Source: a virus
Direction: 5' to 3' (one strand)
IMG/VR virus record: IMGVR_UViG_3300048921_000363
Location: 22,752 to 86,751 of that record
Length of the DNA stretch: 64,000 nucleotides
A program made the translations under genes and the position numbers. Position 1 is the stretch's first letter. Each line of letters begins with the position of its first letter. The notes below the pieces were generated by a model. That model did not search any database and was not told where the DNA came from. It worked only from the letters and a program-made list of their open reading frames with translations. This document shows, in pieces, positions 17,296 to 63,781 of the stretch.

Positions 17296-17369
17296 ATCAA
17301 CTTACGGTTGATGTTATAGATCAACTGACTATTGCGCAACCTTTATGAGACTCTCAACTCATGGTTGAT
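17296..17369. promoter_or_regulatory. Immunity operators between cro and cI
   Basis: Two 17-bp dyads have half-sites ATCAAC/GTTGAT around five bases: 17296-17312 and 17353-17369. The second overlaps the CI start codon (17361). A half-site lies at 17320-17325, 24 bp from the first site. A leftward -10-like TATAAC sits among them for the Cro transcript. No ribosome-binding site precedes CI, so its message may be leaderless as in lambda PRM. Matching dyads recur at 19926-19966. Confidence 0.7.
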
Positions 17370-18092
17370 AAAAATTCTCTCCGCGCAGCTTTCAGCGAGC
17401 GCCTACACGAAGCTCTCGACGATTCCGACGTACGCAGCCGGGGTCGTGGAGTGGACATCCATCGACAGTTGAAAAGCATGGGAGTTGAGAAAACCACTCA
17501 AGCAATCAGCAAATGGCTAAACGGTGAGGCAATCGCAGAGGCCGACAGCATGTCCGCGCTTTGCTCTTGGTTGAAGGTTCGGCGCGAGTGGCTGGAGTAC
17601 GGAGTACTACCAAAACACCAGTCTGAAGAGAGCAATGTCCACAGGATAACCGCCGATGACAGAAGCAATGTAAGCGAGGTCAATCAGCGTTTTGGCAAGG
17701 TCCCGTTGATTTCGTGGGTCCAGGCAGGCGCGTGGTGTGAAGCGATTTCAAATTTTGAATCTTACGATGCGGATTCTTGGCTGTCTTGCCCTGTCCAGAT
17801 AAGCAGTCATGGGTATGCGTTGAAAGTCCTTGGTGACTCAATGACGAACCCCGGTTCGGGTCGTAGTTATCCAGCTGGATGCATAATCTTTGTTGATCCA
17901 GAGGCCGAAACTAGAACCGGGGACCGTGTGATTGCAAGTCTACCAAGAACCAATGAAGCAACATTTAAGGTCCTAGTAGAAGATGCCGGCTTTCAATATC
18001 TAAAACCGATAAATCCGCAGTATCCGATAATTGAAATTACGGAAGAGACACATATCTGCGGGAAAGTTGTCGGTGCTTTCATTCCGGAGTAA
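17361..18092 (+). CDS. CI-type repressor with S24/LexA autoprotease domain
   Basis: This 243-residue prophage repressor has an N-terminal helix-turn-helix in residues 15-80 (block EKTTQAISKWLNGEA). It also has a C-terminal LexA-fold protease with cleavage site Ala-Gly in VQAGAW near residue 121, nucleophile serine in LGDSMTNP near 159 and general-base lysine in TFKVLV near 203. It should maintain lysogeny and be inactivated by RecA-stimulated self-cleavage after DNA damage. It ends four bases before the convergent KAP gene. Confidence 0.92.
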   Translation: MVDKNSLRAAFSERLHEALDDSDVRSRGRGVDIHRQLKSMGVEKTTQAISKWLNGEAIAEADSMSALCSWLKVRREWLEYGVLPKHQSEESNVHRITADDRSNVSEVNQRFGKVPLISWVQAGAWCEAISNFESYDADSWLSCPVQISSHGYALKVLGDSMTNPGSGRSYPAGCIIFVDPEAETRTGDRVIASLPRTNEATFKVLVEDAGFQYLKPINPQYPIIEITEETHICGKVVGAFIPE

Positions 18093-18096
18093 CTAT

Positions 18097-19896
18097 CTAA
18101 AGCTTTACACCATACATATTCTCAACCCTAATAGAGTTGAGTTTATTCTCACCCCCAACTTTCTTTAAAGCATCCACTACTGCGTGACTAATCGCCGCAT
18201 AGAGCTCCGCATCATCCGAATTTGTAGTCGATATATTTCGAAAAGAGAGCAACCCACTTCTAATCTTTGTAGTTATATTTTCGGGAGATGAGCGCATCCA
18301 CTGTACATAGTCATCTACAGTCAAGGTTGCGAGATATGCCACATCCTCCGGACTCCAAGACCGTTCAGTTGCGATCCGCCATGAGATATCATCAATATTA
18401 TAATTCTTACCCGACTTACCCGCCTCAATGACTTTTGACCGTAGCGATGCATTCTTAACGCGTTCCAAGGTCCAAGAAGACATGATGGCATCATCCTTGA
18501 AACTATCATAATGAATGGATATGTAATCATCTATATATGCGTTAACGGATTCACCCATTTCCTCCAACATCTCAATAGCAGAGGAAAAGTCAGATAATGA
18601 AATGCTTTTCAGCTCTCTATCAAGGATACTTTTAAGCTCAGACTTAAACTTCTCGGCGTCATCCCCAAAAGAATCATGGTAAATCTTCCACGCACTCTTT
18701 AGTTCAGCGTCAACATTACTCTTACGATAATGCTCTTCGACCTCTTTAAATACCCGTAAGACCGAGAGTTCATCAACATACCCACACTCTAGATAATTTC
18801 CGATTAGAGAGTCAAACTTTGATTCAGACATTTGCAGATCAATGTTTATGTTTTTGAATGCCAACTGACCTTCAGTCAAGCTTTCCGCACTTGCGGATAG
18901 GTACTTTGCCCATGACCCGCCTACTAAGCTGCTCCGAAGATCTGCATATTTTATAAAACTACTGCCCAGATAATAGGATGAACACAATACCGCCGCATGC
19001 AAATAAAACTCGCAAACCAAGCCATCCTCTTTATCTTTGAGAAATGAAGCATGCGCATGCAATAAAGCTCTTAATTTACGGAGTACCCTTACGTTCTTTA
19101 CACCTATCCTAAGCACCACCGACTTCAAATATTCAACTTGATTTAATTCGGTTGTAAAGACATGAGAAAAGTTTGTGTCGCAAGACGGGTTATATAACAA
19201 CTCAGCGTCAACTACTTTTTCCCGGTACGACTCAAACTGTTCTAAGTCTTTGCTGTCTTTATCAAAAGATTTTTCATTAAAAATCAGTACAACCTTACAT
19301 GACTTGCGTTGAGCCAATTCATCTGCCAGCCCCATCAACTCTTTGATGCTTAGCGAACTTCCCTTCCGCTCTATATCATCAAAACAAACGACGTAGTTAT
19401 TTACCACACTGTATTCAACACTGGACAACAGGCTAGAAAACTTGTCAAGCACCGGAATTTTTTTTGCCGTACCACTGATCCAACCCAGCCAGGGCAGCTT
19501 ATTTTTTGCAAACTGGAGAGTAGACTTAACTTTTGGAAACTTTGAATAAAGCGTATTAGATTTTTCCAGCTCTATTTCAAATGAACGGATAACCGCATCA
19601 TCAGAAGCGATAGCTCTTCCACTTTGAAATACACTAGCCTTAATATCTGCGAGAGAATTCTTTCCAAACAGGGAAACATAGCTATATGCAATTTGCTTCA
19701 GATCTTTTTTCTGGATTCGGCTGTTTATATATTCTTCCCAGAAAAAAGTTTTTCCGACACCCCAATCTCCCCTTATTACTACAACTCCAGAGTTCGACTC
19801 GAAAAAGACATCAAAAGATTTTTTCAAATACTCCATATTCTCAAAGTCCTTTTTTCTGTGAATAGACCGCATCATATCAATGAGCCACACCTTCAT
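18097..19896 (-). CDS. KAP-family P-loop NTPase (candidate phage-exclusion moron)
   Basis: This 599-residue protein has Walker A GDWGVGKT (residues 43-50) and Walker B VVCFDDIER (169-177), the spacing and DD-ER signature of KAP-type NTPases. The rest is mostly helical and rich in charged residues. Its A+T content is clearly higher than that of its neighbours, a sign of transfer. It lies in the immunity region between CI and the early promoter, where lambda keeps rexAB, and runs against CI. PifA of plasmid F, a KAP protein, excludes phage T7; a similar role is inferred here. No obvious transmembrane insert is seen. Confidence 0.7.
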   Translation of the reverse strand: MKVWLIDMMRSIHRKKDFENMEYLKKSFDVFFESNSGVVVIRGDWGVGKTFFWEEYINSRIQKKDLKQIAYSYVSLFGKNSLADIKASVFQSGRAIASDDAVIRSFEIELEKSNTLYSKFPKVKSTLQFAKNKLPWLGWISGTAKKIPVLDKFSSLLSSVEYSVVNNYVVCFDDIERKGSSLSIKELMGLADELAQRKSCKVVLIFNEKSFDKDSKDLEQFESYREKVVDAELLYNPSCDTNFSHVFTTELNQVEYLKSVVLRIGVKNVRVLRKLRALLHAHASFLKDKEDGLVCEFYLHAAVLCSSYYLGSSFIKYADLRSSLVGGSWAKYLSASAESLTEGQLAFKNINIDLQMSESKFDSLIGNYLECGYVDELSVLRVFKEVEEHYRKSNVDAELKSAWKIYHDSFGDDAEKFKSELKSILDRELKSISLSDFSSAIEMLEEMGESVNAYIDDYISIHYDSFKDDAIMSSWTLERVKNASLRSKVIEAGKSGKNYNIDDISWRIATERSWSPEDVAYLATLTVDDYVQWMRSSPENITTKIRSGLLSFRNISTTNSDDAELYAAISHAVVDALKKVGGENKLNSIRVENMYGVKL

Positions 19897-19925
19897 CGCA
19901 AGCCTTTCACGATGCAGTCGTAATA

Positions 19926-19969
19926 ATCAACCATGGGTTGTTGACAAAAAACAACCACTGGTTGATATT
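19926..19969 (+). promoter_or_regulatory. Early rightward promoter with two CI operators
   Basis: TTGACA (19941-19946) and GATATT (19964-19969) are 17 bp apart. A dyad ATCAAC-N5-GTTGTT (19926-19942) overlaps the -35 box, and AACAAC-N5-GTTGAT (19950-19966) covers the spacer and -10 box. The half-sites match those beside CI. The promoter should drive the early operon from 20005 and be shut by CI. Confidence 0.75.
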
Positions 19970-22075: not shown

Positions 22076-22680
22076 GCCAGACCTGCCCCCAATCCAAAAC
22101 CCACCGCAACCCGGCCTACACCCAAGTAGCGGCAGATGAACCAACGCGCAATCGAACTTCGGAGGAAAGCGGCATGCAAAAGGACCAGAACGACAACCAA
22201 CCCACGACCGCTTTGCTCCGCAAGGAAACCAGCGTCGACGCATTAGAAACAAGCAGCCTCTGCTGCGCAGCAGCAGGCATTATTGCATCTTCCAGCAGCA
22301 CCGCTGAGGCACTTATACCCCACGAAAAGCTGCGCGAGGCAGCCACACCCAATGCAACGCTAACCGCTCAAAATCGCCCGCCCGCGCAGCTTGCTGTGGG
22401 GTATCCGCCCCCTGACAGCAACTCTGATAGTCCATCACAAGAAGCCGTCGACGAAGTGCAGATCGACGAGCGCGTCGAGTTCGAGAAAGAGTTCCCGATC
22501 CCTGAGGGCCTGAAGCACTGCGCCCAGCGAGGCACCTACATCACCGCACCAGGTACGGAGACATCCGACTCTTTCGCCCGTGAGCATTACGCGTACCGGG
22601 CCGGCTTCGTAGCATGGAAGCGCAGAGCCTGGAAGCACGCCGCACTCGTTGGCCAACAAGCCGAAGGAGTCCGCACGTGA
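22072..22680 (+). CDS. Hypothetical early phage protein
   Basis: This 202-residue protein has a low-complexity N-terminal two-thirds rich in Ser, Thr, Ala and Pro and a better-conserved-looking C-terminal part (FPIPEGLKHCAQRGTYITAP, then REHYAYRAGFVAWKRRAWKH). The latter resembles short phage proteins with a tyrosine/tryptophan-rich tail. It overlaps the methyltransferase GTG start by 4 bp. Function unknown. Confidence 0.6.
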   Translation: MSQTCPQSKTHRNPAYTQVAADEPTRNRTSEESGMQKDQNDNQPTTALLRKETSVDALETSSLCCAAAGIIASSSSTAEALIPHEKLREAATPNATLTAQNRPPAQLAVGYPPPDSNSDSPSQEAVDEVQIDERVEFEKEFPIPEGLKHCAQRGTYITAPGTETSDSFAREHYAYRAGFVAWKRRAWKHAALVGQQAEGVRT

Positions 22681-24668
22681 TCAAGCGCACTTTCAAACAC
22701 TTCCACATGTGCTGCGGGCTGGGCAGTGGTGCCGCAGGTTTTAGTGACTCCAAGCCTGCATTGGGTTCAGTACAAGCCGAATGGCGATGCTTGGGCGGTG
22801 TTGACGTCGACTCTGCTGGACTACGCGACTTTCAAATGATGACTGGCGTGCCAGGGACGTTGATGGATCTGTTTACCCGCGAGCAGTTCACTGCATTCCA
22901 CGGTCAGGAACCGCCGTCTCACTGGAAAGAGGCCACCGCTGAAGATCTGCGCCGCGCTGCCGGCAACGAAGATCCGGACGCCGTGTTCATAAGCAGTCCG
23001 TGCAAAGGCGCCTCGGGGTTGTTGTCCGAGACGATGAGTCAGACGCCAAAGTACCAAGCCCTGAACGAACTGACGCTCCGCTGCGTGTGGCTGATGTGTG
23101 AGGCATGGAAGCATAACCCCGTCTCGCTGATCATCTTCGAGAACGTGCCACGCTTGGCCACTCGCGGCCGACACCTTCTAGATCAGATCAACAAGCTGCT
23201 CAGTTTCTATGGATACGCGGTCGCTGAAACCACCCACGACTGCGGTGAGATCGGTGGCCTGGCACAGAGCCGCAAGCGGTTCTTGCTGGTCGCAAGGCAC
23301 GTCGAGAAAGTCCCAGCGTTCCTTTATCAGCCTGAAAAACGCAGCCTGCGAGCCGTCGGCGATGTGCTCAGCCGCATGCCGCTGGCGGGAGACATCGAAC
23401 AGGCCGGACCGATGCATCGTGTGCCGGCACTGCAATGGAAGACATGGGTTCGACTGGCACTGGTAGAGGCCGGCAAAGATTGGCGCAGCCTTAGCCGATT
23501 CGCGATAGAGGATGGCCATCTACGCGACTTCGTGATCGTGCCCGAATATCGCGCCGGCTATCTGGGAATAAACACCTGGACCGAAAACGCCGGCACCGTA
23601 GCCGGCAGATCCACACCTACCAATGGCAAGTTCTCAGTCGCCGACCCAAGGCCTACCAGCAAATTCGAATACACCCAATACGGCGTGCTGCCCTTCGATC
23701 GCCACTGCGGCGTCGTAACAGGGCAGCGAAGCCCAGGGCAAGGCACATTCAGCGTGGCCGACCCACGCATGACCGGTGGAAGTCACACCAATGTATTCCG
23801 CGTGATTAACAACGATCAAGCCGCTGGCACCGTAACCACCAGTCACGGTCCGAGCTCCGGTGGACAGGCAGTGGCAGACCCTCGACAGCCAACCAAGGGC
23901 TTCGGCAAATACCTAGTAACTGACTACACCAAACCAGCAGGCACCGTCATCGCCGGGAGCACCACCGGGCAAGGCGCTTTTGCCGTAGCAGATCCTGCTT
24001 ACAAGAACTGGCATAAAGGCGCCAGCACCCAAAAGTTACGCGTCACGCCATGGGGCAAATCAGCCAGGACAGTGACCGGCTCGCAGCAGGTCGCCAGCGG
24101 TGCCCTCTCTATCGCGGACCCACGCCCAGGCATGTCTCGCAGCAAAGGCGACGCATACCTCACCGGTGGGCATTACGGCGTGGTCGATTGGAAAGATCCA
24201 GCCGGCGCCGTATCCGCCAGTGCATGCCATGACAATGGCAGATGGTCCGTTGCAGACCATCGAATGCCAGCCGCCAATGACCGACTCACCTGCATGATCG
24301 CCAGCCTCGACGGTACCTGGCATCGGCCTTTTACAACGCTGGAACTGGCCGCGCTGCAGTCGTTGTTTGATCCAGAGGAACATTGGTCTACTGATGCGCA
24401 GACAGTTCGTGACATTCAGATGATGCAGCACGCCCGCAAGATCGAGAACGCGAGGTTCTTTCAACTGGACGGTATCAACGATGGCAGCCATCGCGAACGC
24501 ATCGGCAACGCAGTGCCGCGTGCGGCAGCAAAAGCCATGGCCGACGTGTTCGGTATGACACTGCTACTGTCAGACGCTGGCGAGACGTTCATGCTCAGCA
24601 ACGTATCAATCTGGGTTCAGCCGGTAGCCGTTGCCCTAAGCGCTTCCATTCGGGAGGTTCAGGCATGA
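22677..24668 (+). CDS. DNA (cytosine-5) methyltransferase with six internal repeats
   Basis: This 663-residue enzyme has C5-methyltransferase motifs: I (CCGLGSGAAGF, residues 12-22), IV with catalytic Cys (SSPCKGAS, near 108), VI (FENVPRL, near 155), VIII (QSRKRF, near 197) and X (RIGNAVP, near 606). Residues about 300-545, where target recognition normally lies, are six tandem repeats of 38-45 residues with core AGTVxGxxxxxGxFSVADPR. No restriction enzyme is adjacent, so it probably protects phage DNA. The start is a GTG overlapping the previous stop. The paralogue at 60228 has five repeats. Confidence 0.9.
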   Translation: MIKRTFKHFHMCCGLGSGAAGFSDSKPALGSVQAEWRCLGGVDVDSAGLRDFQMMTGVPGTLMDLFTREQFTAFHGQEPPSHWKEATAEDLRRAAGNEDPDAVFISSPCKGASGLLSETMSQTPKYQALNELTLRCVWLMCEAWKHNPVSLIIFENVPRLATRGRHLLDQINKLLSFYGYAVAETTHDCGEIGGLAQSRKRFLLVARHVEKVPAFLYQPEKRSLRAVGDVLSRMPLAGDIEQAGPMHRVPALQWKTWVRLALVEAGKDWRSLSRFAIEDGHLRDFVIVPEYRAGYLGINTWTENAGTVAGRSTPTNGKFSVADPRPTSKFEYTQYGVLPFDRHCGVVTGQRSPGQGTFSVADPRMTGGSHTNVFRVINNDQAAGTVTTSHGPSSGGQAVADPRQPTKGFGKYLVTDYTKPAGTVIAGSTTGQGAFAVADPAYKNWHKGASTQKLRVTPWGKSARTVTGSQQVASGALSIADPRPGMSRSKGDAYLTGGHYGVVDWKDPAGAVSASACHDNGRWSVADHRMPAANDRLTCMIASLDGTWHRPFTTLELAALQSLFDPEEHWSTDAQTVRDIQMMQHARKIENARFFQLDGINDGSHRERIGNAVPRAAAKAMADVFGMTLLLSDAGETFMLSNVSIWVQPVAVALSASIREVQA

Positions 24669-25327: not shown

Positions 25328-26446
25328 CTAAGTGCCATCACCTATCAATTCCCTAAATTCATTTAACCTCAGCATCCACAACCAGCCACTATACCGATCT
25401 CCTCGCCCGCGGAGATGCGTATACCTCCGCAGCGAGTTCCAGTCCCGGTGTCCTGAGACACTAGACACTCTAGGAATGTCCCAGTCCATTTCGAAAAGCC
25501 GGCTAACCCCCTCGTGTCTAAGGTCATGGAAGTGTAAATCCTCAATACCAAGCATCGGGCACGCCCGCGTGAAAGCAGCCGAAACCGACCTAGCGTTGTA
25601 AGGGAAGATCTCCCGCTCGACCTTGGGCATGCTCTGCAGAATGGCCCAAGCCTCATCAGGCAGATAACACCACACATCATTACCAATCTTTTGCCCGGGG
25701 TTCTTCATATCGCGCACCAGGACCGACTGCCGAGACTCATCGAGATCATCCCAACGGATACGCGTAATTTCCTCCTGTCGGCGCGTCGAAAAAAGCGCAA
25801 AGGCGATCACCTTCGGCATGTCGATCTGAGCTTTACGACGTTCCTGCATTTCGAAGAAATGCGCCATGAGCTTGTCCAGCTCATCAAGCGTCGGCCGGCG
25901 ATTACGCTCTCTGCTCTTGCTCACCATACCTAGCTTGCGCAACACCTTCCTGGCATCAGACATGGCCAGCGGATCCACCTCATAGCCCCAAGCTGGACGC
26001 GCCACAGACAACACCGCCCCCAAGTGTGAGAGATCATTTCCGACCGTTTGCGCCTGAACGCCGCCGCCCTCTTTACTCATCCGCCATTGTGCGAACTCCA
26101 CCAGCTTCTGGCTGGTCAGAGCCGAGTCCTCAAGGTCGCCCAGCCAAGTATGCTTGATCGCTTTCAAGGTGGCGTTCTTGGTCTTGCCCAGCGGCCGGAT
26201 TTTCTCGTACTCGTCCAGGTACTGCTCGATCATCTTCCTGATCGTCACACCCTTACGGTTTGCGCGCTCAATCGCACCAGGCTCAGCCAGCTCCGTCTCA
26301 CGCCGTTTGATCCAAGCCTGGGCGACCTGCTTTCGGTCGAAGGTTTGGCTTTCCTGATAAACTGAGCGCCCGTCCCGATTGATCCGTATCTGCGCTGTGT
26401 AGGCCGTAGAGTTGTCCTTGCGCTTGCGTGATGTGATCGTGCCCAT
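25328..26446 (-). CDS. int: Tyrosine recombinase, dusA-type integrase (prophage 1)
   Basis: This 372-residue phage integrase has catalytic residues visible as Arg in STRRQEEITR (near 220), His-x-x-Arg in FHDLRHEGVSR (near 303), His in SGHRDWNSLRRY and Tyr (near 341). It has an N-terminal arm-binding domain. It abuts a 5' fragment of dusA, consistent with the described integrase family that targets dusA. It is similar along its length to the prophage 2 integrase. Operator- or arm-like repeats lie just upstream. Confidence 0.93.
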   Translation of the reverse strand: MGTITSRKRKDNSTAYTAQIRINRDGRSVYQESQTFDRKQVAQAWIKRRETELAEPGAIERANRKGVTIRKMIEQYLDEYEKIRPLGKTKNATLKAIKHTWLGDLEDSALTSQKLVEFAQWRMSKEGGGVQAQTVGNDLSHLGAVLSVARPAWGYEVDPLAMSDARKVLRKLGMVSKSRERNRRPTLDELDKLMAHFFEMQERRKAQIDMPKVIAFALFSTRRQEEITRIRWDDLDESRQSVLVRDMKNPGQKIGNDVWCYLPDEAWAILQSMPKVEREIFPYNARSVSAAFTRACPMLGIEDLHFHDLRHEGVSRLFEMDWDIPRVSSVSGHRDWNSLRRYTHLRGRGDRYSGWLWMLRLNEFRELIGDGT

Positions 26447-49521: not shown

Positions 49522-49962
49522 ATGATGCTTGCCCTGGGCATGTTCGTTTTCAGCCTCTCCACCGCCGCCTACCAAGAACTGCAGCGCCAAACCGAATGGC
49601 GCCACGCGAGCAGCAACCGCGTCGGCGCCGCGCCGGCTCGCCAGTTCGTCGGCCGTGGTGATGACTCCATCACCCTACCCGGCATCATCCTGCCGGAACT
49701 CGCCGGCAGCGCCCTCAGCCTCGACGCTTTGCGCCTGATGGCCAACACCGGCAGGGCGTGGCCAATGGTCGAAGGCAGCGGCCGGATCTACGGCCTATGG
49801 ATCATCGAAAGCCTGAGCGAAACCAAGACGATCTTCTTCCGAGACGGCACGCCACGCCGCATCGAGTTCACCCTCAGCCTCAAGCGCATCGATGACGACC
49901 GTATCGACCTGATCGGCGCCGGTACCAGCGCCGGAGTCAGCATCATGAGGACGCTGCTGTGA
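49522..49962 (+). CDS. U: Tail protein gpU (P2 family)
   Basis: This 146-residue P2 gpU-type tail protein (FVFSLSTAAYQELQRQTEWR, then YGLWIIESLSETKTIFFRDG) is needed for tail assembly. It overlaps gpD by 4 bp. Confidence 0.93.
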   Translation: MMLALGMFVFSLSTAAYQELQRQTEWRHASSNRVGAAPARQFVGRGDDSITLPGIILPELAGSALSLDALRLMANTGRAWPMVEGSGRIYGLWIIESLSETKTIFFRDGTPRRIEFTLSLKRIDDDRIDLIGAGTSAGVSIMRTLL

Positions 49963-51212
49963 TCGATGCCGCCCTCTCCCGCGTCACCGGTTTTCTGGAC
50001 AAGACTATCGAGCGCTACAAGCGCGACGCGGCTTATCCGGTACCGGCGTTTCGTATTACCGTCGATGGCAACGACATCGCCCAACTGATCAGCCCCCGCC
50101 TGATGAGCTTGGACCTGACCGACAACCGTGGCATCGAGGCGGATCAACTCAGCATCACCCTCAGCGACCATGACGGGCTGCTGGCGATCCCACCCAAGGG
50201 CGCGGTGGTTCGATTGTGGCTGGGCTGGAGCGATACAGGACTTGTCGACAAAGGCACCTACACAGTCGATGAAACCGAACACTCCGGCGCGCCTGACGTG
50301 CTGAGCATTCGCGCGCGCTCCGCCGATCTGCGCAAAGGCCTGAAGACCAAGCGCGAACGCAGTTGGAGCAACACCACGCTCGGCGACGTGCTGGGCGATA
50401 TCGCCCTGGGCAACGGCCTGACCTCGACCATTGCCGGCGCCCTCGACGGCTTGCCGATTCTGCAACTGGACCAGGCCAACGAATCCGACGCCAACCTGAT
50501 CAGCCGCATCGGTGAAGAATTCGACGCGGTGGTCAGCGTCAAGGCCGGCTGCCTGCTGTGCCTGCCCGCCGGCGGGGGCAAGACCGCCAGCGGCGCCGAG
50601 CTGCCCCACATCACCCTCACCCGCGCCGACGGCGATCAGCACCGCTACCTGCAAGCCGACCGCGACAGCTACGACGGCGTGCGGGCCTACTTCTACGACG
50701 TGAACAGCGCCAAGAAACAGGAAGCCATTGCCGGCGGTGGCGAGAATCTTAAGGACCTGCGGCATACCTACAGTGACCGGCAATCTGCCCTGCGTGCTGC
50801 ACGGGCCGAGTTCAACCGCCTGCAACGCGGTAGCGCGACGCTCAGCTATACACTGGCCATGGGCCGGCCGGATCTGATACCTGAGCTGACCTATACGCTT
50901 GAGGGGGTGAAGCCGGAGATTGACGAGATTGTTTGGTACGGGGGGAATGTTCAGCACACGCTCAGTGCTGACAACGGCTACACCGTCAGCCTTGAGTTGG
51001 AGAGCAAGTTACCGGAGGACACCGTTGAGGATTTGACGGAGGAGAGCAAGGAAGACTTCACGGGGATCATCGCTTACTACCGCGAAGAAAGTACCGGGAA
51101 GGAAAAGATGGTGACGGCTGGAGATCAGAGTAAGCCGCGACGATTGCGCTGGTTGTATGCTACGGAGAAGACGGCCAAGCGGGCCGTCGTTCGCGAATGG
51201 ACGCGGTTATAA
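49959..51212 (+). CDS. D: Baseplate hub / late-control protein gpD (P2 family)
   Basis: This 417-residue hub protein of the P2 gpD family (gp27-like) has PAFRITVDGNDIAQLISPRL and LTDNRGIEADQLSITLSDHD. It forms the central baseplate hub that holds the spike. It starts with GTG overlapping the U stop. In P2 the ogr gene follows D; here a KAP NTPase gene lies there in the opposite orientation. Confidence 0.95.
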   Translation: MIDAALSRVTGFLDKTIERYKRDAAYPVPAFRITVDGNDIAQLISPRLMSLDLTDNRGIEADQLSITLSDHDGLLAIPPKGAVVRLWLGWSDTGLVDKGTYTVDETEHSGAPDVLSIRARSADLRKGLKTKRERSWSNTTLGDVLGDIALGNGLTSTIAGALDGLPILQLDQANESDANLISRIGEEFDAVVSVKAGCLLCLPAGGGKTASGAELPHITLTRADGDQHRYLQADRDSYDGVRAYFYDVNSAKKQEAIAGGGENLKDLRHTYSDRQSALRAARAEFNRLQRGSATLSYTLAMGRPDLIPELTYTLEGVKPEIDEIVWYGGNVQHTLSADNGYTVSLELESKLPEDTVEDLTEESKEDFTGIIAYYREESTGKEKMVTAGDQSKPRRLRWLYATEKTAKRAVVREWTRL

Positions 51213-51258
51213 GGAATTCAACAGGGTGAGGAAGAGGCTAACCTCCTCCCCCAATAAT

Positions 51259-53121
51259 CTATTTCTTGAAGCTATCGATATGCTTTAGTGCGGCGTCCAC
51301 AGCTTGACACCCCTCCGAAAACTGAACCCGCCTGAATCCAAAACCTGTACCCGCCTCAAACATTAGTTTCAACTTCAAAAGAACATCGCGCTCTTCTAGG
51401 ATAACCAACACAGCGCCACCAATTGAAAACCTTCTACGAACTATCGAGTTAAACTTCTGCAAAGTTGCACCACTCGCAGAACTTAAAAACAACTCCAACT
51501 CATCAACCTTAACATACTTAAACAATGGCATTTGAAAACTAAGAGCCATCTCCCGAAGCACTGTAAGCTCTTTATCATCACTCCATCCACTCAAGCGCTG
51601 AATAAAGTCTTTTTCAGACTCATACTTCCTGACAGCAGTGTCAAACTCCGTCAATAGCTCATCAAGCTCAGGAGAATACGACCTCCCCTGTCTCACATAA
51701 AATTCTTCTCCTGTCACTTCAAAGGCATACCCATCTGCCCCCAAGAATTTTCGCCACTTAACAACAGATTCTTTAAAAATCTCCAACATCTTATCTAACG
51801 GGACTGGAGTCCCCCCCATACTTGAATCATAAGCAAACTCATAAATGATGGTTGCAAGTTTTTTAATATCGCAGACACCCGGCACTGGCTTTCGAACAGC
51901 ATCAACAACCTCATCAAAATATGCGAGATAATCGACCTCACTCATTTCTGTCCGTTCAAGCAATCGTTCGTACACCTCACAAATGGGGCGATTCGAGTAG
52001 TCGACATGACCATCAGTAATCACGAGCGACCTCTTGAGATCATCAACTTCTAGTTTATCAAACAAAATATAGTCAAGCACAAAGCCATTTCTTGAAGAGC
52101 CATTACAAACAAACGAAGGTATAGACTGAACAAAAACATCCTCATCGGACAATGCAACTGAGTTTCTATCTTTCATCACTATATCTAGTTGCCGATCATA
52201 ACAACCATTGCAAATACTTTTCAAAGTTGCTCTTTGTTCTGCAGTCTTTTTGCCACGTATCTTAGATGTTAGAGAAGCAAGAAAAACAACTTGATAAAGC
52301 ATAGCCAAGAACTGCGAACTAATAACATCCTCAGATCCAATTGACACTTTATACAAATGGATTCGCCTAAGTAACTCAAGTGACGTAGAAATAGTCCTCA
52401 CATTTTTGATTTCGAAAAAATTAACGACCGGCATCAAATGCGTTTCTACAATGGCAGACAATTCCTCAGCCAAATCAGTGCAAACAATTTCTAGCGAAAG
52501 TTTCAGAGCATCTGCACAGGACATCCTGATTGGCACATCTCTCCATATATTCTTTTCGTAAATAGCGGCGTGAACTGACCCTTGGACTATCTTTGCCTCG
52601 TCCAAAAGCATAATTACTTTACGAGACTTATACTCTGAAAAGTAATTGATTTCCGACCATGCCTTGAGAAAATTCGAATCAGACAATCTGTCTAGATCAT
52701 CAAAACACAATATATAACCTTCCAGAGCATCAATTATTCTTTTTTTGACTGCCCCTCCAACTGCCATTACCGCTGCGCCTATCACACCAGCGCTTTTTGG
52801 ATCAGAAGTAATACTCGTAAACAATCCAGTCAGCAGCGCACCTGCACCGCTCTTCGAGTTATCATCAACGTCTTTGATACCAGACAACTCTTCTATTAGA
52901 AAATCGTCCAACCCTTTACCTGAAACCCCATATGAGTACAGAGAAACATACAAACACTTCCTCCCTCCACCTTCAATTATTTTTCTTATGGTATTTTTGA
53001 ACAAATGGGTTTTCCCGCTCCCCCACTCCCCGGTAATAGCCAGAGCACCACTTCTCTTTGAGTTGAAATACTCCCCTAAAACCTCAGACCAATAACAACT
53101 TACATCGTCAAAATCATTCAT
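51259..53121 (-). CDS. KAP-family P-loop NTPase, second copy (candidate defence moron)
   Basis: This 620-residue protein has Walker A GEWGSGKT (residues 31-38) and Walker B ILCFDDLDR (137-145). Between them lies a hydrophobic stretch (SAGVIGAAVMAVGGAV, near 110-125), which matches the membrane insert typical of KAP ATPases. The A+T content is strongly raised, so it is probably acquired. It is convergent with D and has its own promoter region, because a terminator at 53203-53231 isolates it. Sequence similarity to the prophage 1 KAP protein is limited to the NTPase core. Phage exclusion is inferred from family precedent. Confidence 0.72.
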   Translation of the reverse strand: MNDFDDVSCYWSEVLGEYFNSKRSGALAITGEWGSGKTHLFKNTIRKIIEGGGRKCLYVSLYSYGVSGKGLDDFLIEELSGIKDVDDNSKSGAGALLTGLFTSITSDPKSAGVIGAAVMAVGGAVKKRIIDALEGYILCFDDLDRLSDSNFLKAWSEINYFSEYKSRKVIMLLDEAKIVQGSVHAAIYEKNIWRDVPIRMSCADALKLSLEIVCTDLAEELSAIVETHLMPVVNFFEIKNVRTISTSLELLRRIHLYKVSIGSEDVISSQFLAMLYQVVFLASLTSKIRGKKTAEQRATLKSICNGCYDRQLDIVMKDRNSVALSDEDVFVQSIPSFVCNGSSRNGFVLDYILFDKLEVDDLKRSLVITDGHVDYSNRPICEVYERLLERTEMSEVDYLAYFDEVVDAVRKPVPGVCDIKKLATIIYEFAYDSSMGGTPVPLDKMLEIFKESVVKWRKFLGADGYAFEVTGEEFYVRQGRSYSPELDELLTEFDTAVRKYESEKDFIQRLSGWSDDKELTVLREMALSFQMPLFKYVKVDELELFLSSASGATLQKFNSIVRRRFSIGGAVLVILEERDVLLKLKLMFEAGTGFGFRRVQFSEGCQAVDAALKHIDSFKK

Positions 53122-53202
53122 TTTCTGCCACCAAAATTATAAATTAAGCGGTAACAATCAACCTTTGCACTCAAAAATCAGTAAAAAAAGAGAGCAAATA
53201 TC

Positions 53203-53231
53203 AAAAACAGCTCCGGAATGATTGCCGGAGC
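53203..53231 (-). terminator. Terminator separating the KAP gene from upstream small genes
   Basis: A stem GCTCCGG/CCGGAGC with an 8-base loop is followed by TTTTT on the minus strand, just after the 38-residue gene stop. Confidence 0.75.
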
Positions 53232-53246
53232 CACTTCCAAACTCGC

Positions 53247-53363
53247 TTACTTTGATGACTGCGCAAACGCCTCCATGATTCTCAGCACATCCTGAAGCTG
53301 CTGGTCATCCAGCTTTGCCAGAAGGTGCAAAAAAAGATGCTCCAAAGGGGTAAGGTTTTCCAT
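53247..53363 (-). CDS. Small helical protein (38 residues)
   Basis: A short frame encodes MENLTPLEHLFLHLLAKLDD followed by QQLQDVLRIMEAFAQSSK, an amphipathic leucine-rich helix pair. An intrinsic terminator lies 16 bp after its stop. An overlapping frame starting with TTG at 53470 (62 residues) is possible but has no ribosome-binding site. Function unknown; it may be a small regulator. Confidence 0.5.
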   Translation of the reverse strand: MENLTPLEHLFLHLLAKLDDQQLQDVLRIMEAFAQSSK

Positions 53364-53567: not shown

Positions 53568-54338
53568 TTACAGTGTCGGTGGCAACGTCAGGTATACGCC
53601 GTTTTCTCCCCACCCTTGCAGGTTCCCCTTGGCGTCAACAACGTAGTACTCGCCGAAGTCGTTCCCGGGCTCATCCAGGCGCAACCCACCATCAGGTAGC
53701 TTCTTTGCCTGGTAGCTATTGGTGTTTTTTCCGCCGCTTGGAAAAATCGAATCGATCGTGTATTTCCCGTTGCGCTTGTACAGAACCATCAGGTGGCCGA
53801 GGGCACCGTCACGCAGCCAACTTCCGATTTTGTCCGGATACCCGGCAAGGTCCAACGTCTTCAACGCTTGGTAATCTTTTGCGCTTAAGCCAATGAGAGA
53901 ACTCTTATAGTCCGGGTCAAAACTGGCATTGGCCCAGTAGGCCTTGTCGGTCTGCCCCTCGACTCTGAAGCCGATGAAAGTCGCTTTGGCCTTAAATTTT
54001 GTATCTGCGCGGACCGCCTTAGCCACGTCTGCCAGCTCCGCATCACTCAAGCGCTTTGGCAGCAGGATTTCGACTTTACGGGGGCGTCCCTCTTGGAATT
54101 CGTCCTTCGTAATCGAATACGATTTCGGCGCAACGCTCTGCGTGACCTTCTCGACGGGCTTGTCTTCGTTACTGCCCGAACACATCGTAACTGTCACACC
54201 GATGATGACGACCAGAAAGACAAACCCGGCAACTCGTCCCAGAAGAGTGATCCCTGGATCAACAACACCACAGCTCGGGCAAACTTTCGCGGTGGCATCA
54301 ACGTTGTGTTTGCAAGACTTACAAGGCTTCAAAGCCAT
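53568..54338 (-). CDS. Zinc-ribbon, single-pass membrane protein (cargo)
   Basis: This 256-residue protein has a four-cysteine N-terminal zinc ribbon (CKSCKHNVDATAKVCPSCG, residues 6-24) and one membrane helix (GFVFLVVIIGVTVTMC, near 38-53). The soluble domain of about 200 residues is probably periplasmic and of unknown family. It lies between the repressor terminator and the small genes. The layout resembles superinfection-exclusion membrane proteins, but no specific match is known to me. Confidence 0.65.
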   Translation of the reverse strand: MALKPCKSCKHNVDATAKVCPSCGVVDPGITLLGRVAGFVFLVVIIGVTVTMCSGSNEDKPVEKVTQSVAPKSYSITKDEFQEGRPRKVEILLPKRLSDAELADVAKAVRADTKFKAKATFIGFRVEGQTDKAYWANASFDPDYKSSLIGLSAKDYQALKTLDLAGYPDKIGSWLRDGALGHLMVLYKRNGKYTIDSIFPSGGKNTNSYQAKKLPDGGLRLDEPGNDFGEYYVVDAKGNLQGWGENGVYLTLPPTL

Positions 54339-54442: not shown

Positions 54443-54772
54443 TCACACCACGCTTGCAGCCTTCGCGAAGGCCGAGGCCATACGTAACAACACGTCGCGA
54501 TCTTGCTCACCAATGTGTTGGTACACCTCAAGAAACTCTGCTGCTTGGGTACTGATGCTGCCGGCAGGAGTCGGTTTGCGTTCTCCGGTCACAACGTACA
54601 GAACATCAACTCCCAACTCCGCAGCCGCGGCCAAGTACTTGGCGTCGGGGCTACCAGACCCTTTTTCATAATTTATTTGGGTGGTTTTACCGACACCGCC
54701 AGCAGCACCTAAATCAGTCTGGCTGAGGCCTAGACGCGACCTTTCTTCCTTCAGCCGATCACCGATGGTCAT
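54443..54772 (-). CDS. Prophage 2 repressor (P2 C-like, helix-turn-helix)
   Basis: This 109-residue protein has an N-terminal HTH_3 domain (LKEERSRLGLSQTDLGAAGG, residues 7-60) and a short helical C-terminal part for dimerisation. It has no S24 protease domain, so it should not be cleaved in the SOS response, unlike the prophage 1 repressor. It is divergent from the Cox-like gene. The operators at 54778-54815 adjoin its start. Confidence 0.85.
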   Translation of the reverse strand: MTIGDRLKEERSRLGLSQTDLGAAGGVGKTTQINYEKGSGSPDAKYLAAAAELGVDVLYVVTGERKPTPAGSISTQAAEFLEVYQHIGEQDRDVLLRMASAFAKAASVV

Positions 54773-54857: not shown

Positions 54858-55070
54858 ATGCACGCCACCTACGCACCCGAGCAAGCTTGCCAGGCCGCTA
54901 GAACGCGCTTGGAGCTTCAGGGCATTTCCGTCAAGGACTTTGCCCTTCAGAACGATCTGCACCCCTCAACCGTTTACGCGGTATTGAACGGCCAGAAGAA
55001 GTGCCTGCGGGGCGAAGCCCACCGCGCCGCAGTACTTCTCGGTATCAAAGACCGCGTGATTGAAAACTAA
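54858..55070 (+). CDS. Cox/Cro-like DNA-binding protein
   Basis: This 70-residue helix-turn-helix protein (LQGISVKDFALQNDLHPSTV, residues 19-38) is the first gene of the rightward early operon and divergent from the repressor. In P2 this place is held by Cox, which represses the lysogenic promoter and acts as excisionase. Here int is 8 kb away, so the excisionase role is uncertain. Confidence 0.75.
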   Translation: MHATYAPEQACQAARTRLELQGISVKDFALQNDLHPSTVYAVLNGQKKCLRGEAHRAAVLLGIKDRVIEN

Positions 55071-60227: not shown

Positions 60228-62030
60228 ATGCTCAAGCGAACACTCAAACACTTTCATTTCTGCTGCGGCCTCGGTGGCGGCGCCAAAGGTTTCAACAAAT
60301 CCAAGCCCATCGTGGGCAACATTCAAGCGCAATGGCAATGCATCGGCGGCATCGATATTGATGCGGCCGGGCTGGCCGACTTCGAGCGTTTGAGCGGAGT
60401 CAAGGGCACGCTGCTGGATCTGTTTACCCGAGATCAGTACATACGCTTCCACGGGAAAGAGCCGCCACCTGGTTGGCGTGAGGCGACAGTCGAAGATGTT
60501 CGACGTGCAGCCAACTACCAACGGCCCGACGCAGTGTTCATTTCCAGTCCGTGCAAAGGCGCGTCGGGCCTGCTGTCCGAAAAGATGAGTCTGACCCCAA
60601 AATATCAGGCGCTGAACGAACTCACGCTACGCTGCATCTGGCTGTTCGGTGAAGCCTGGAAAGACGATGCTGTTCCGCTTTTGGTCTTCGAAAACGTCCC
60701 TCGGCTGGCAACCCGTGGCCGGCACTTGCTCGACCAGATCAACAAGGTGCTGTCTCACTTCGGCTATGCCGTGGCTGAAACCACTCACGACTGCGGTGTA
60801 ATCGGCGGCTTGGCCCAGAGTCGAAAACGGTTCTTGCTGGTGGCGCGCCACATCGAGAAGGTACCGCCCTTCCTGTATGAGCCAGAAAAGAAAACCCTCA
60901 AGTCTGTCGGCTCAATCCTCGGCCGCATGCCGCTCGCCGGCGATATCGAAGCCGCCGGTCCCATGCACCGGGTTCCAGCTCTCCAATGGAAAACGTGGGT
61001 GCGTCTTGCCCTCGTCACCGCCGGCAAGGACTGGCGCAGCCTGAATGACTTAGCGATCGAGGACGGTTATCTGCGTGATCTGGTGATCGTGCCCGAGTAT
61101 CGCGCCGGCTACCTCGGCGTGCACGACTGGCAAGACACCGCCGGCACCGTCGCTGGGCGCAGCAACCCAACAAACGGCGCATTCTCGGTTGCTGATCCAC
61201 GCGCCAAAGCCGGTGCTCTGCAATATCAGCAGTACGGTGTCCGTCGCTGGGAAGAGACCAGTGGCGCGGTGATCGGCGTCAAGTCGCCCGGACAGGGAAC
61301 ATTCAGCGTTGCGGATCCTCGCCGGCCGGGCGATGGGTTCGGAAAGTACTTGGTAACGCAGTTCGACAAGGCCGCCGGAACAGTCATCGCCGGCAGCACC
61401 ACGGGGCAAGGCGCTTTTGCTGTGCAGGATCCCCGATACCATAACTGGCACCCGGCAGCGAGTAGCCGGAAGCTGGGCGTTTGCCCGTGGGATAAAACGG
61501 CTGGGACTGTTACCGGATCGCAGCAGGTTGCCAGTGGTGCATTGTCGATCGCAGATCCCCGCCCTGGCATGAAGCGCGTCAAGGGTGATGCCTACCTGAC
61601 TGGTGGCCACTATGGCGTTGTCGGCTGGAATGAACAGTGCGGTGCTGTTTCAGCCAGTGCAAAGCAGGACAACGGGCGCTGGTCGGTAGCTGACCCGCGT
61701 ATGCCGGAAGCGAACGACCGGTTGACCTGCGTGATTGAAAGTCTCGACGGCACTTGGCACCGCCCATTCACCACGCTGGAGCTGGCCGCGCTGCAAAGCC
61801 TGGTCGAACCCGAAGAACAGTTCGAGCTGGATGGACTGAGTGATCAGGCGTGGCGTGAGCGTATCGGTAACGCCGTACCACCTGACGCCGCCGAAGCCAT
61901 CGCCGATGTGATGGGTACCACGCTGTTACTCGCCGCATCTGGAGAAACCTTCATGCTCAATAGCATGCCGATCTGGGTTCGCCCGATAGCGGTAGGCCTG
62001 AGCGTGGCGCATCGGGAGACTGCGCTATGA
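60228..62030 (+). CDS. DNA (cytosine-5) methyltransferase with five internal repeats
   Basis: This 600-residue homologue of 22677-24668 has motif I CCGLGGGAKGF (12-22), catalytic Cys in SSPCKGAS (near 108), ENV (near 155), QSRKRF (near 197) and RIGNAVP (near 546). Residues about 300-500 are five repeats with core AGTVxG...GxFSVADPR; one repeat present in the prophage 1 enzyme is missing. No restriction partner is seen. It is expressed behind hairpin 3, suggesting translational control. Confidence 0.9.
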   Translation: MLKRTLKHFHFCCGLGGGAKGFNKSKPIVGNIQAQWQCIGGIDIDAAGLADFERLSGVKGTLLDLFTRDQYIRFHGKEPPPGWREATVEDVRRAANYQRPDAVFISSPCKGASGLLSEKMSLTPKYQALNELTLRCIWLFGEAWKDDAVPLLVFENVPRLATRGRHLLDQINKVLSHFGYAVAETTHDCGVIGGLAQSRKRFLLVARHIEKVPPFLYEPEKKTLKSVGSILGRMPLAGDIEAAGPMHRVPALQWKTWVRLALVTAGKDWRSLNDLAIEDGYLRDLVIVPEYRAGYLGVHDWQDTAGTVAGRSNPTNGAFSVADPRAKAGALQYQQYGVRRWEETSGAVIGVKSPGQGTFSVADPRRPGDGFGKYLVTQFDKAAGTVIAGSTTGQGAFAVQDPRYHNWHPAASSRKLGVCPWDKTAGTVTGSQQVASGALSIADPRPGMKRVKGDAYLTGGHYGVVGWNEQCGAVSASAKQDNGRWSVADPRMPEANDRLTCVIESLDGTWHRPFTTLELAALQSLVEPEEQFELDGLSDQAWRERIGNAVPPDAAEAIADVMGTTLLLAASGETFMLNSMPIWVRPIAVGLSVAHRETAL

Positions 62031-62285: not shown

Positions 62286-62561
62286 ATGAACACAGCTTTC
62301 ATTCTGATGGCCCAGTACGACGGCCAGGCGATTATCTCGCTTGATCGGGTGTGTCGTGACTACTTCACTCACCTGACGCCCGACATGTTCCAGCGCAAGG
62401 TGTTGAGTGGTCAGATCAAGATCCCCATCACCCGGCTGGAGCCGAGCCAGAAGTCCGCCAAGGGCGTTCACATCGGTGACCTAGCGGCTTACCTCGATCT
62501 CCAGCGCGCCGCCGCGGTGAAAGAAAACAATCAGCTCAACGGCTTAAAACCCGCCTGTTGA
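62286..62561 (+). CDS. PrtN-family transcriptional activator
   Basis: This 91-residue PrtN-type protein (LMAQYDGQAIISLDRVCRDY, then HIGDLAAYLDLQRAAAVKEN) is homologous to 24665-24934. The ATG follows GAGGGGAAC. Its 3' end overlaps the convergent integrase 3' end by 26 bp, with no terminator between. Confidence 0.85.
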   Translation: MNTAFILMAQYDGQAIISLDRVCRDYFTHLTPDMFQRKVLSGQIKIPITRLEPSQKSAKGVHIGDLAAYLDLQRAAAVKENNQLNGLKPAC

Positions 62562-63687
62562 GCCACTTCATTGATGCGGCGCCCAGTTGGACGGGCGCCC
62601 TCAATATCTTCTCGTGCCATTCCCACCCCACATACCGATCACCTTTACCGCGCAGGTGGGTGTAACGTCGCAGCGAATTCCAGTCTCTGTGCCCCGACAC
62701 ACTCGCCACGCGGGGGATGTCCCAGTCCATTTCAAACAGGCGGCTGACGCCCTCGTGGCGAAGGTCGTGAAAGTGCAGGTCAGCAATTTCCAGAAACTTG
62801 CAGGCCTTCGCCCAGGAAGTGGAAATAGATTCGGGGCTGTACGGGAAAATGTCGTCGCCGGCCTTGGGCATCGTTTGGAGTATCTGCCACGCCTCGTCCG
62901 GCAAGTCACACCACACGTCGTTGCCGATCTTCTGCCCGGGGTTCTTCATGTCCCGGACCAGGACTCGCTGGCCAGCCTCGTCCACGTCCGCCCAGCGAAT
63001 GCGGGTGATCTCATCGAGACGGCGAGTTGAGAATAAGGCGAAGCCGACGACCTTCAACATGTTGGTGATACTCCGACGCCGGGCCTGCATGTCCTCATAG
63101 TGCGTCATGATCTTGCCCAACTCATCCAGGGTCGGACGCCGGTCCCGCTCGCGGCTCTTGAGGTTGTAGCCGAGTTTGCGCAGCACCCGCCGGGCGCCGG
63201 CCATGGCCAGAGGATCGACTTGATAGCCCCACGCGTCCTTGGCAATGGAAAGCACAGCGCCAAGGTGCGCGAGATCATTGCCGGCGGTTTGCGCCTGGAC
63301 GCTTCCCCCTTCGCTACTCATCCGCCACAGGGCGAAGTCCACCAGGCACTGCGTATTGATATCGGTATCATTGAGCTTGCCGAAGTAGCTGGCACCGATG
63401 GCCGTAAGCGTGGCCTTTTTGGTTTTCCCCAGCGGACGCGCCTTTTCGACTTCGCGCAGGTACTGATCAATCATCTCTTTGGCAGTGGCGCCCTTGCGGC
63501 TCGCCCGCTCGATCGCACCTGGTTCATCCAGTTCCGATTCGCGCTTACGCGCCCACGCCTGCGCAGCCTGTTTCCGGGCGAAGGTCTGGCTCTCTTGGTA
63601 GACTTGCACTCCATCACGCTTGATGCGGATCTGAGCGGTGTAGCTCACAGACCCATCCGCCAGTTTTCTTGCCCTGATAGCTGCCAT
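62536..63687 (-). CDS. int: Tyrosine recombinase, dusA-type integrase (prophage 2)
   Basis: This 383-residue integrase has catalytic Arg in STRRLDEITR, His-x-x-Arg in FHDLRHEGVSR (near 305), His in SGHRDWNSLRRY and Tyr (near 340). The start MAAIRARKLADGSVSYTAQI at 63687 is chosen by alignment to the prophage 1 integrase; the frame extends to 63780 without support. It is transcribed away from dusA and lies 140 bp from it. Confidence 0.93.
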   Translation of the reverse strand: MAAIRARKLADGSVSYTAQIRIKRDGVQVYQESQTFARKQAAQAWARKRESELDEPGAIERASRKGATAKEMIDQYLREVEKARPLGKTKKATLTAIGASYFGKLNDTDINTQCLVDFALWRMSSEGGSVQAQTAGNDLAHLGAVLSIAKDAWGYQVDPLAMAGARRVLRKLGYNLKSRERDRRPTLDELGKIMTHYEDMQARRRSITNMLKVVGFALFSTRRLDEITRIRWADVDEAGQRVLVRDMKNPGQKIGNDVWCDLPDEAWQILQTMPKAGDDIFPYSPESISTSWAKACKFLEIADLHFHDLRHEGVSRLFEMDWDIPRVASVSGHRDWNSLRRYTHLRGKGDRYVGWEWHEKILRAPVQLGAASMKWLNRRVLSR

Positions 63688-63694
63688 ATCGAAA

Positions 63695-63732
63695 GTGGTA
63701 CGCGTCGGTTTTGAAGTGGTACATCGTACCAC
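63695..63732. promoter_or_regulatory. Inverted and direct repeats upstream of integrase 2
   Basis: GTGGTAC (63695-63701) is followed 21 bp later by the dyad GTGGTAC-ATC-GTACCAC (63716-63732). A further ATGGTACA lies at 63791. The layout matches the repeats upstream of integrase 1 though the bases differ, indicating cognate protein-site pairs. Confidence 0.65.
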
Positions 63733-63740
63733 CGAGACCT

Positions 63741-63781
63741 GAAAAACGCCTGAAAACGCCCTAAAACACGCCGAAAACACG
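63741..63781. repeat. Four helically phased A-rich repeats beside the attachment site
   Basis: GAAAAACGCC, TGAAAACGCC, CTAAAACACGCC and GAAAACACG follow each other at 10-12 bp spacing between integrase 2 and dusA. This looks like intrinsically bent DNA or an array of arm-type sites. Confidence 0.55.

Follow-up and report, generated by a model that had tools for sequence, protein, structure and literature searches.

A KAP-family NTPase gene in an exchangeable slot of a P2-like Pseudomonas prophage, a probable anti-phage cassette

Introduction

Two neighbouring prophages on one stretch of viral DNA each carry a gene for a KAP-family NTPase, which raises the question of what the second of these genes, here termed KAP2, does, and whether its pairing with the first, KAP1, is more than a coincidence. 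The stretch analysed, referred to as the window, covers the final 64 kb of a record of 86,751 bases in IMG/VR. An original prediction, made from its sequence, had taken the pair for independent acquisitions of one protein family that suggest selection, perhaps for a role against different invaders or against each other.

Prophages are known to harbour anti-phage hotspots, as described for E. coli P2-like phages and for Vibrio and Bacillus prophages (PMC9122126). In P2/P4 phages, a pair of conserved phage genes flanks each such locus, which is small, exchangeable and occupied by anti-phage systems (Rousset et al. 2022, PMC9122126); the E. coli P2 hotspot adjoins cos, and the Vibrio hotspot is located between cI and the integrase (PMC9122126).

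Results

The two prophages of the window, each with its own integrase and repressor (Table 1), differ in phage type. Prophage 2 is a P2-like phage close to the Citexvirus phages of Pseudomonas; in prophage 1 the terminase belongs to phrog_15, the primase to phrog_2249 and the repressor to the S24 type, and the DNA common to both is restricted to baseplate genes, a methylase and the integrase. Each prophage encodes a large DNA cytosine methyltransferase (22614-24668 and 60228-62030, both on the plus strand), with ~71% DNA identity between the two genes. The integrase genes, ~69% identical in DNA, are both located at the right prophage ends in the same orientation, as integration at related sites would predict. 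A search for attachment repeats detected nothing beyond the homology of the integrases and short matches due to chance, with no att core identified, and no tRNA genes were found in the 64-kb window.

Table 1. Coordinates of the features discussed, as positions in the window.
Feature	Position	Strand	Remarks
S24-type (CI-like) repressor, prophage 1	17361-18092	+	Slot 1 border, convergent with KAP1
Slot 1 cassette, prophage 1	18093-19940	.	
KAP1, KAP NTPase of prophage 1	18097-19896	-	599 aa; PDC-S49, phrog_4740
Integrase, prophage 1	25328-26446	-	
gpD-like tail (late control D) gene	49959-51212	+	Slot 2 left border, convergent with KAP2
Slot 2 cassette	51213-53246	.	Replaced as a unit in related phages
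KAP2, KAP-family NTPase	51259-53121	-	620 aa, ATG start
TATAAT, candidate -10 box of KAP2	53136-53141	-	Sequence
Intrinsic-terminator-like hairpin	53201-53240	-	Between repressor module and KAP2
38-aa gene	53247-53363	-	Slot 2 right border, repressor module
Zinc-ribbon protein, repressor module	53568-54338	-	256 aa
XRE-type immunity repressor (C), prophage 2	54443-54772	-	
Cox-like DNA-binding protein	54858-55070	+	Divergent from repressor; BcepMu gp16-like in Dobby
Integrase, prophage 2	62536-63780	-	

The prediction of a KAP NTPase gene in prophage 2 is borne out, as the reading frame is real, the Walker motifs are intact and the product matches Pfam KAP_NTPase (PF07693) at 32.4 bits, above the curated cut-off of 20. 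Walker A (GEWGSGKT, residues 31-38) and Walker B (LCFDDLDR, residues 138-145, with FDDLDR at 140-145) are kept in relatives, and when KAP2 is aligned to 15 relatives, the majority at an identity of just 13-18%, G31, W33, G34, G36, K37, T38, F140, D141, D142 and R145 as well as E189, K190 and R242 are invariant. GC content drops over KAP2 to 39-46%, from ~60% in the surrounding phage. A membrane-spanning insert is present in many KAP family members but not in all, and is no essential family feature. Hydropathy and predicted structure do not support such an insert between Walker A and B of KAP2, nor therefore the membrane-insert-like stretch of the original prediction: residues 112-130 have a mean Kyte-Doolittle value of only 1.34 with KKR inside, the top 19-residue peak (1.72) is found elsewhere, at residues 266-284, and residues 83-122 are disordered in the predicted structure rather than forming a transmembrane helix pair.

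The predicted structure is mediocre (pLDDT 73, pTM 0.47) and suggests an AAA+/STAND-like core (residues ~1-290) followed by a helical C-terminal part (291-620). RdrA of RADAR tops the structural ranking of the core, with a Z-score of 12.5 over 247 residues (3-290); on the predicted model, TnsC and ORC appear tied with it, and NLRs reach Z 10-11. The C-terminal half gave no match in the structural search, a Foldseek comparison to viral models returned generic AAA+ proteins only, and sequence searches found no solved structure for KAP2. Searches using tblastn yielded zero matches among the INPHARED phages and a single one, at 27%, among plasmids, while a profile search of genome contigs using a two-row KAP2 alignment returned nothing, nor did NCBIfam give anything specific. 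The closest family in PADLOC is the candidate family PDC-S49 (3e-20).

Among the surveyed loci, KAP2-type genes occur in L088 (86%), L097 (56%) and L090 (89%, frameshifted). The last of these, at 8001-9871 of L004 (the same locus), belongs to another prophage, in which the gene is dispensable since it is broken by frameshifts. In the window, L088 and L097 the catalytic motifs are intact, and the comparison of KAP2 to L088 gives a dN/dS of 0.14, with 0.07 for the NTPase half and 0.19 for the C-terminal half. These data show KAP2, at the level of its sequence, to be an intact NTPase under purifying selection, and a slower NTPase half next to a faster C-terminal half would fit a C-terminal sensor, without proving it. 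The dS between the window and L088 is 0.50 for KAP2 and likewise 0.50 for gpD; hence the KAP2 cassette has stayed with its phage since the common ancestor with L088, unlike in other phages, where this position turns over.

The exchangeable position, here slot 2, was delimited using gpD as anchor: a related gpD gene was retrieved on 78 genome loci and 80 viral contigs, and 125 of these loci have a measurable interval from gpD to the replication side. In relatives whose backbone is 85-90% identical but whose cargo differs, homology breaks off at 51184-51206, where gpD ends. It starts again at 53246, just past the stop codon of the 38-aa gene, or at 53209 in those with a common terminator. The loci compared at these borders were L091, L092, L097, L098, L100, L101, L102, L105 and L107. 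These gene-precise borders define a KAP2 cassette of ~2.03 kb, with KAP2 as its sole gene together with its own terminator and a candidate promoter, and KAP2 occupies a precise exchangeable position between conserved phage genes. A low-GC gene of at least 120 aa is found in the interval in 88 of the 125 loci, 70 times on the minus strand like KAP2 versus 18 times on the plus strand. The cargo in relatives matches Pycsar (PycC, 1.7e-161, and PycTM), PARIS AriA, a type II methylase, CBASS-type effectors (2TM effector), PDC-S42 and, in 12 loci, PDC-S20, another KAP type; cargo that is not defence-like comprises a LuxR regulator in Dobby and a ParB-domain protein in D14A. With the phage backbone of the window as a control, 38 proteins gave no PADLOC match at 1e-15. 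Judged from these matches, the occupants of slot 2 include known defence genes and the backbone does not.

A transcription unit of its own had also been proposed for KAP2. The hairpin terminator, which would set KAP2 apart from the repressor module, agrees with this proposal, whereas a promoter scan gave no score above chance. The candidate -10 box, kept in L090 and TATATAAT in L088, has a poor matching -35, and L097 has a different leader and a different terminator sequence at the hairpin site. In the adjoining repressor module, the 38-aa gene lies between the zinc-ribbon gene and the KAP2 cassette, and a 117-nt CDS is annotated in its place in the Dobby and D14A phages. Its product, LLAKLDDQQLQDVLRIMEAFAQSS, resembles by eye the C-terminal end of the repressor, HIGEQDRDVLLRMASAFAK, and is perhaps a repressor partner. 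The zinc-ribbon gene, a second accessory gene adjoining slot 2, is found in ~30 of the surveyed loci with variable length, and its product also has a hydrophobic segment.

The KAP gene of prophage 1 was approached through a scan with its S24 repressor, yielding 80 loci, 73 of them measurable. The homology of relatives ends at 18086-18102, usually at the repressor stop codon (~18092), and returns at 19914-19960. This slot 1 is empty in 10 of the 73 loci, leaving a gap of 36-50 bp, and filled with 0.8-3.7 kb in the other 63; across all 73 the median GC of the interval is 0.41, compared to 0.57 in the flank, and the largest gene is antisense to the repressor in 57 of the 62 filled loci with a called gene. 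Occupants include Septu A+B, DRT5, PARIS AriA, a CBASS-type cyclase, NACHT, KAP, PDC-S20 (4 loci), PDC-S21, PDC-S28 and AbiC-like proteins. PDC-S20 and a two-gene pair with an AAA_15 ATPase are cargo types common to both slots, at low identity. Slot 1 thus behaves like slot 2, which supports the defence reading of KAP2.

Several further observations concern the cargo. Recurrent NACHT proteins of ~598 aa with a SNaCT13 C-terminal domain fill slot 1 in L262, L270, L292, L293 and L296. A KAP1-type gene is again a neighbour of gpD, here a distant one (33%), in L245 (7328-10750), which is a different prophage and comes from another genome of Pseudomonas. Other P2-like phages (L211-L214, L220, L222, L226) have KAP-type genes in a third location, with gpJ on one side and the capsid gene on the other. 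Many low-GC cassettes of both slots match nothing in PADLOC or Pfam beyond, at most, a generic domain; such candidate defence systems include L259:5762-7534, L319:5742-7280 (ORC-CDC6-like domain) and a three-gene cassette in L116/L120.

The two KAP proteins of the window have little in common, in agreement with the original prediction: their alignment is limited to ~186 N-terminal residues at 25% identity, and overall identity is 15%. Their genes also lie at different positions, KAP2 between gpD and the repressor module and KAP1 beside the S24 repressor. A tree built from 37 NTPase domains places KAP1 and KAP2 in separate, well-supported clades, that of KAP2, L088 and L097 having a long stem, and forcing KAP1 with two relatives and KAP2 with two relatives into a single clade costs 24.7 log units (p-AU 0.00032). 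The AU test rules out a recent shared duplication, the outcome of a phylogeny that the original prediction had named as contrary to it, and independent acquisition is thereby supported. Deep branching order is uncertain because of the long branches in the tree; still, by their sequences, KAP1 and KAP2 are old, separate lineages.

Discussion

Based on the position of KAP2, its family and its mode of evolution, we propose that it is probably a prophage-borne anti-phage gene that forms a cassette on its own within a defence hotspot of the P2-like phages of Pseudomonas. A defence gene is the most likely identity because KAP2 sits in a slot beside the repressor where related phages carry anti-virus genes, and an anti-phage role best explains the defence-hotspot position, the KAP family and the purifying selection together. 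The role against invaders suggested in the original prediction gains support from both KAP genes, each located in a slot that relatives fill with known defence genes. Against this reading count that PDC-S49 is only a PADLOC candidate, matched by KAP2 mainly in the NTPase part, that the structural model is mediocre and its C-terminal half unmatched, that part of the slot 2 cargo is non-defence-like, and that the L090 copy is broken.

In comparison to known systems, KAP2 resembles PDC-S49 in being a single gene for a protein of ~620 aa with an N-terminal KAP NTPase and the motifs GxWGxGKT and FDDxxR. However, chromosomal Pseudomonas members match the PDC-S49 model end to end with 280-720 bits, while the best stretches of KAP2 cover positions 15-255 and 13-423 of ~620, with 70 and 64 bits, and no end-to-end match was found; KAP2 would thus belong to a branch related to the family, not to its core. 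PDC-S20, which comprises PifA/QatA-like KAP NTPases, fills the same two slots, but is 460 aa long and another subfamily, with KAP2 matching its models at 0.006 at best; PifA is matched with an E-value of 0.018, and QatA is not among the matches listed for KAP2. RdrA of RADAR has a similar core fold, tied with those of other proteins, yet the single-gene KAP2 cassette has no adjacent RdrB adenosine deaminase partner. No named family covers the KAP2 branch end to end among the Pfam, PADLOC, PHROG or NCBIfam matches.

Alternatively, KAP2 may be a moron that serves fitness or regulation and not defence, for instance a modulator of lysogeny, replication or segregation, in line with its location next to the repressor, with the LuxR regulator and ParB-domain protein that slot 2 also takes, and with a core fold common to DNA initiators. 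This we regard as unlikely, as the strongly matched slot 2 cargo is defence and the same kind of gene is present in a second, unrelated, defence-rich slot. Quite improbable is that the two KAP genes target each other's prophage, with the pairing reflecting selection for such mutual exclusion. NTPases of independent origin in adjacent prophages would agree with it, as would the ability of P2-like hotspot systems to block close relatives (PMC9122126); yet both genes coexist in one cell, and the same cassettes are present in relatives with no partner in view. Moreover, a KAP-type gene is the largest cargo in 15 of the 125 slot 2 loci and fills 7 of the 73 slot 1 loci, i.e. ~10-12% of each slot, so that a double lysogen with KAP in both is expected in ~1% of cases if the slots fill independently. 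KAP genes being common slot cargo, the pair alone is no evidence for selection or mutual exclusion, and the original prediction is not sustained on this point.

Counter-defence genes also cluster in phages, and as phage-carried cargo KAP2 might disarm host immunity on behalf of the phage. We consider this highly improbable: a 620-aa NTPase encoded beside the repressor, in the lysogeny half and opposite in strand to the late genes, would be typical of lysogenic expression and not of early genes acting at injection, and its slot neighbours are defences, not anti-defences. That KAP2 is a decaying passenger without function is scarcely credible, despite the frameshifted copy in one relative, since the purifying selection on KAP2 and its intact catalytic motifs contradict decay.

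For the preferred anti-phage role, the following mechanism can be envisaged. KAP2 would be transcribed from its own promoter during prophage dormancy, as the position of the gene suggests. The faster-evolving C-terminal half would then meet a component of an incoming phage, upon which the NTPase core assembles, and the assembled complex may either block that infection or stop cell growth. Its target would probably be other phages in general, and less so the partner prophage. Recombination within the conserved phage genes on either side is the probable route of cassette exchange. Somewhat speculatively, KAP2, L088 and L097 may form a phage-restricted branch of STAND/AAA+ immune NTPases, a single-protein defence with no recognisable nuclease, membrane or NAD-depleting effector, with KAP1 and KAP2 as independent solutions to the same task; if this were true, the inhibitory step would be a new one.

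Prophage anti-phage hotspots as a kind of system are already known. The two Pseudomonas slots differ from those of P2/P4 in location, slot 2 being between gpD and the repressor module and slot 1, in another type of phage, next to an S24 repressor, and no description of either was found in the open-access literature. In conclusion, position ties KAP2, an unnamed NTPase, to a probable defence role, and a one-off coincidence is replaced by a testable rule, in which two types of Pseudomonas prophage each have one swappable slot beside the repressor. As many occupants match no known defence model, both slots provide a ready list of candidate anti-phage systems, for each of which the empty form of slot 1 represents a natural control.
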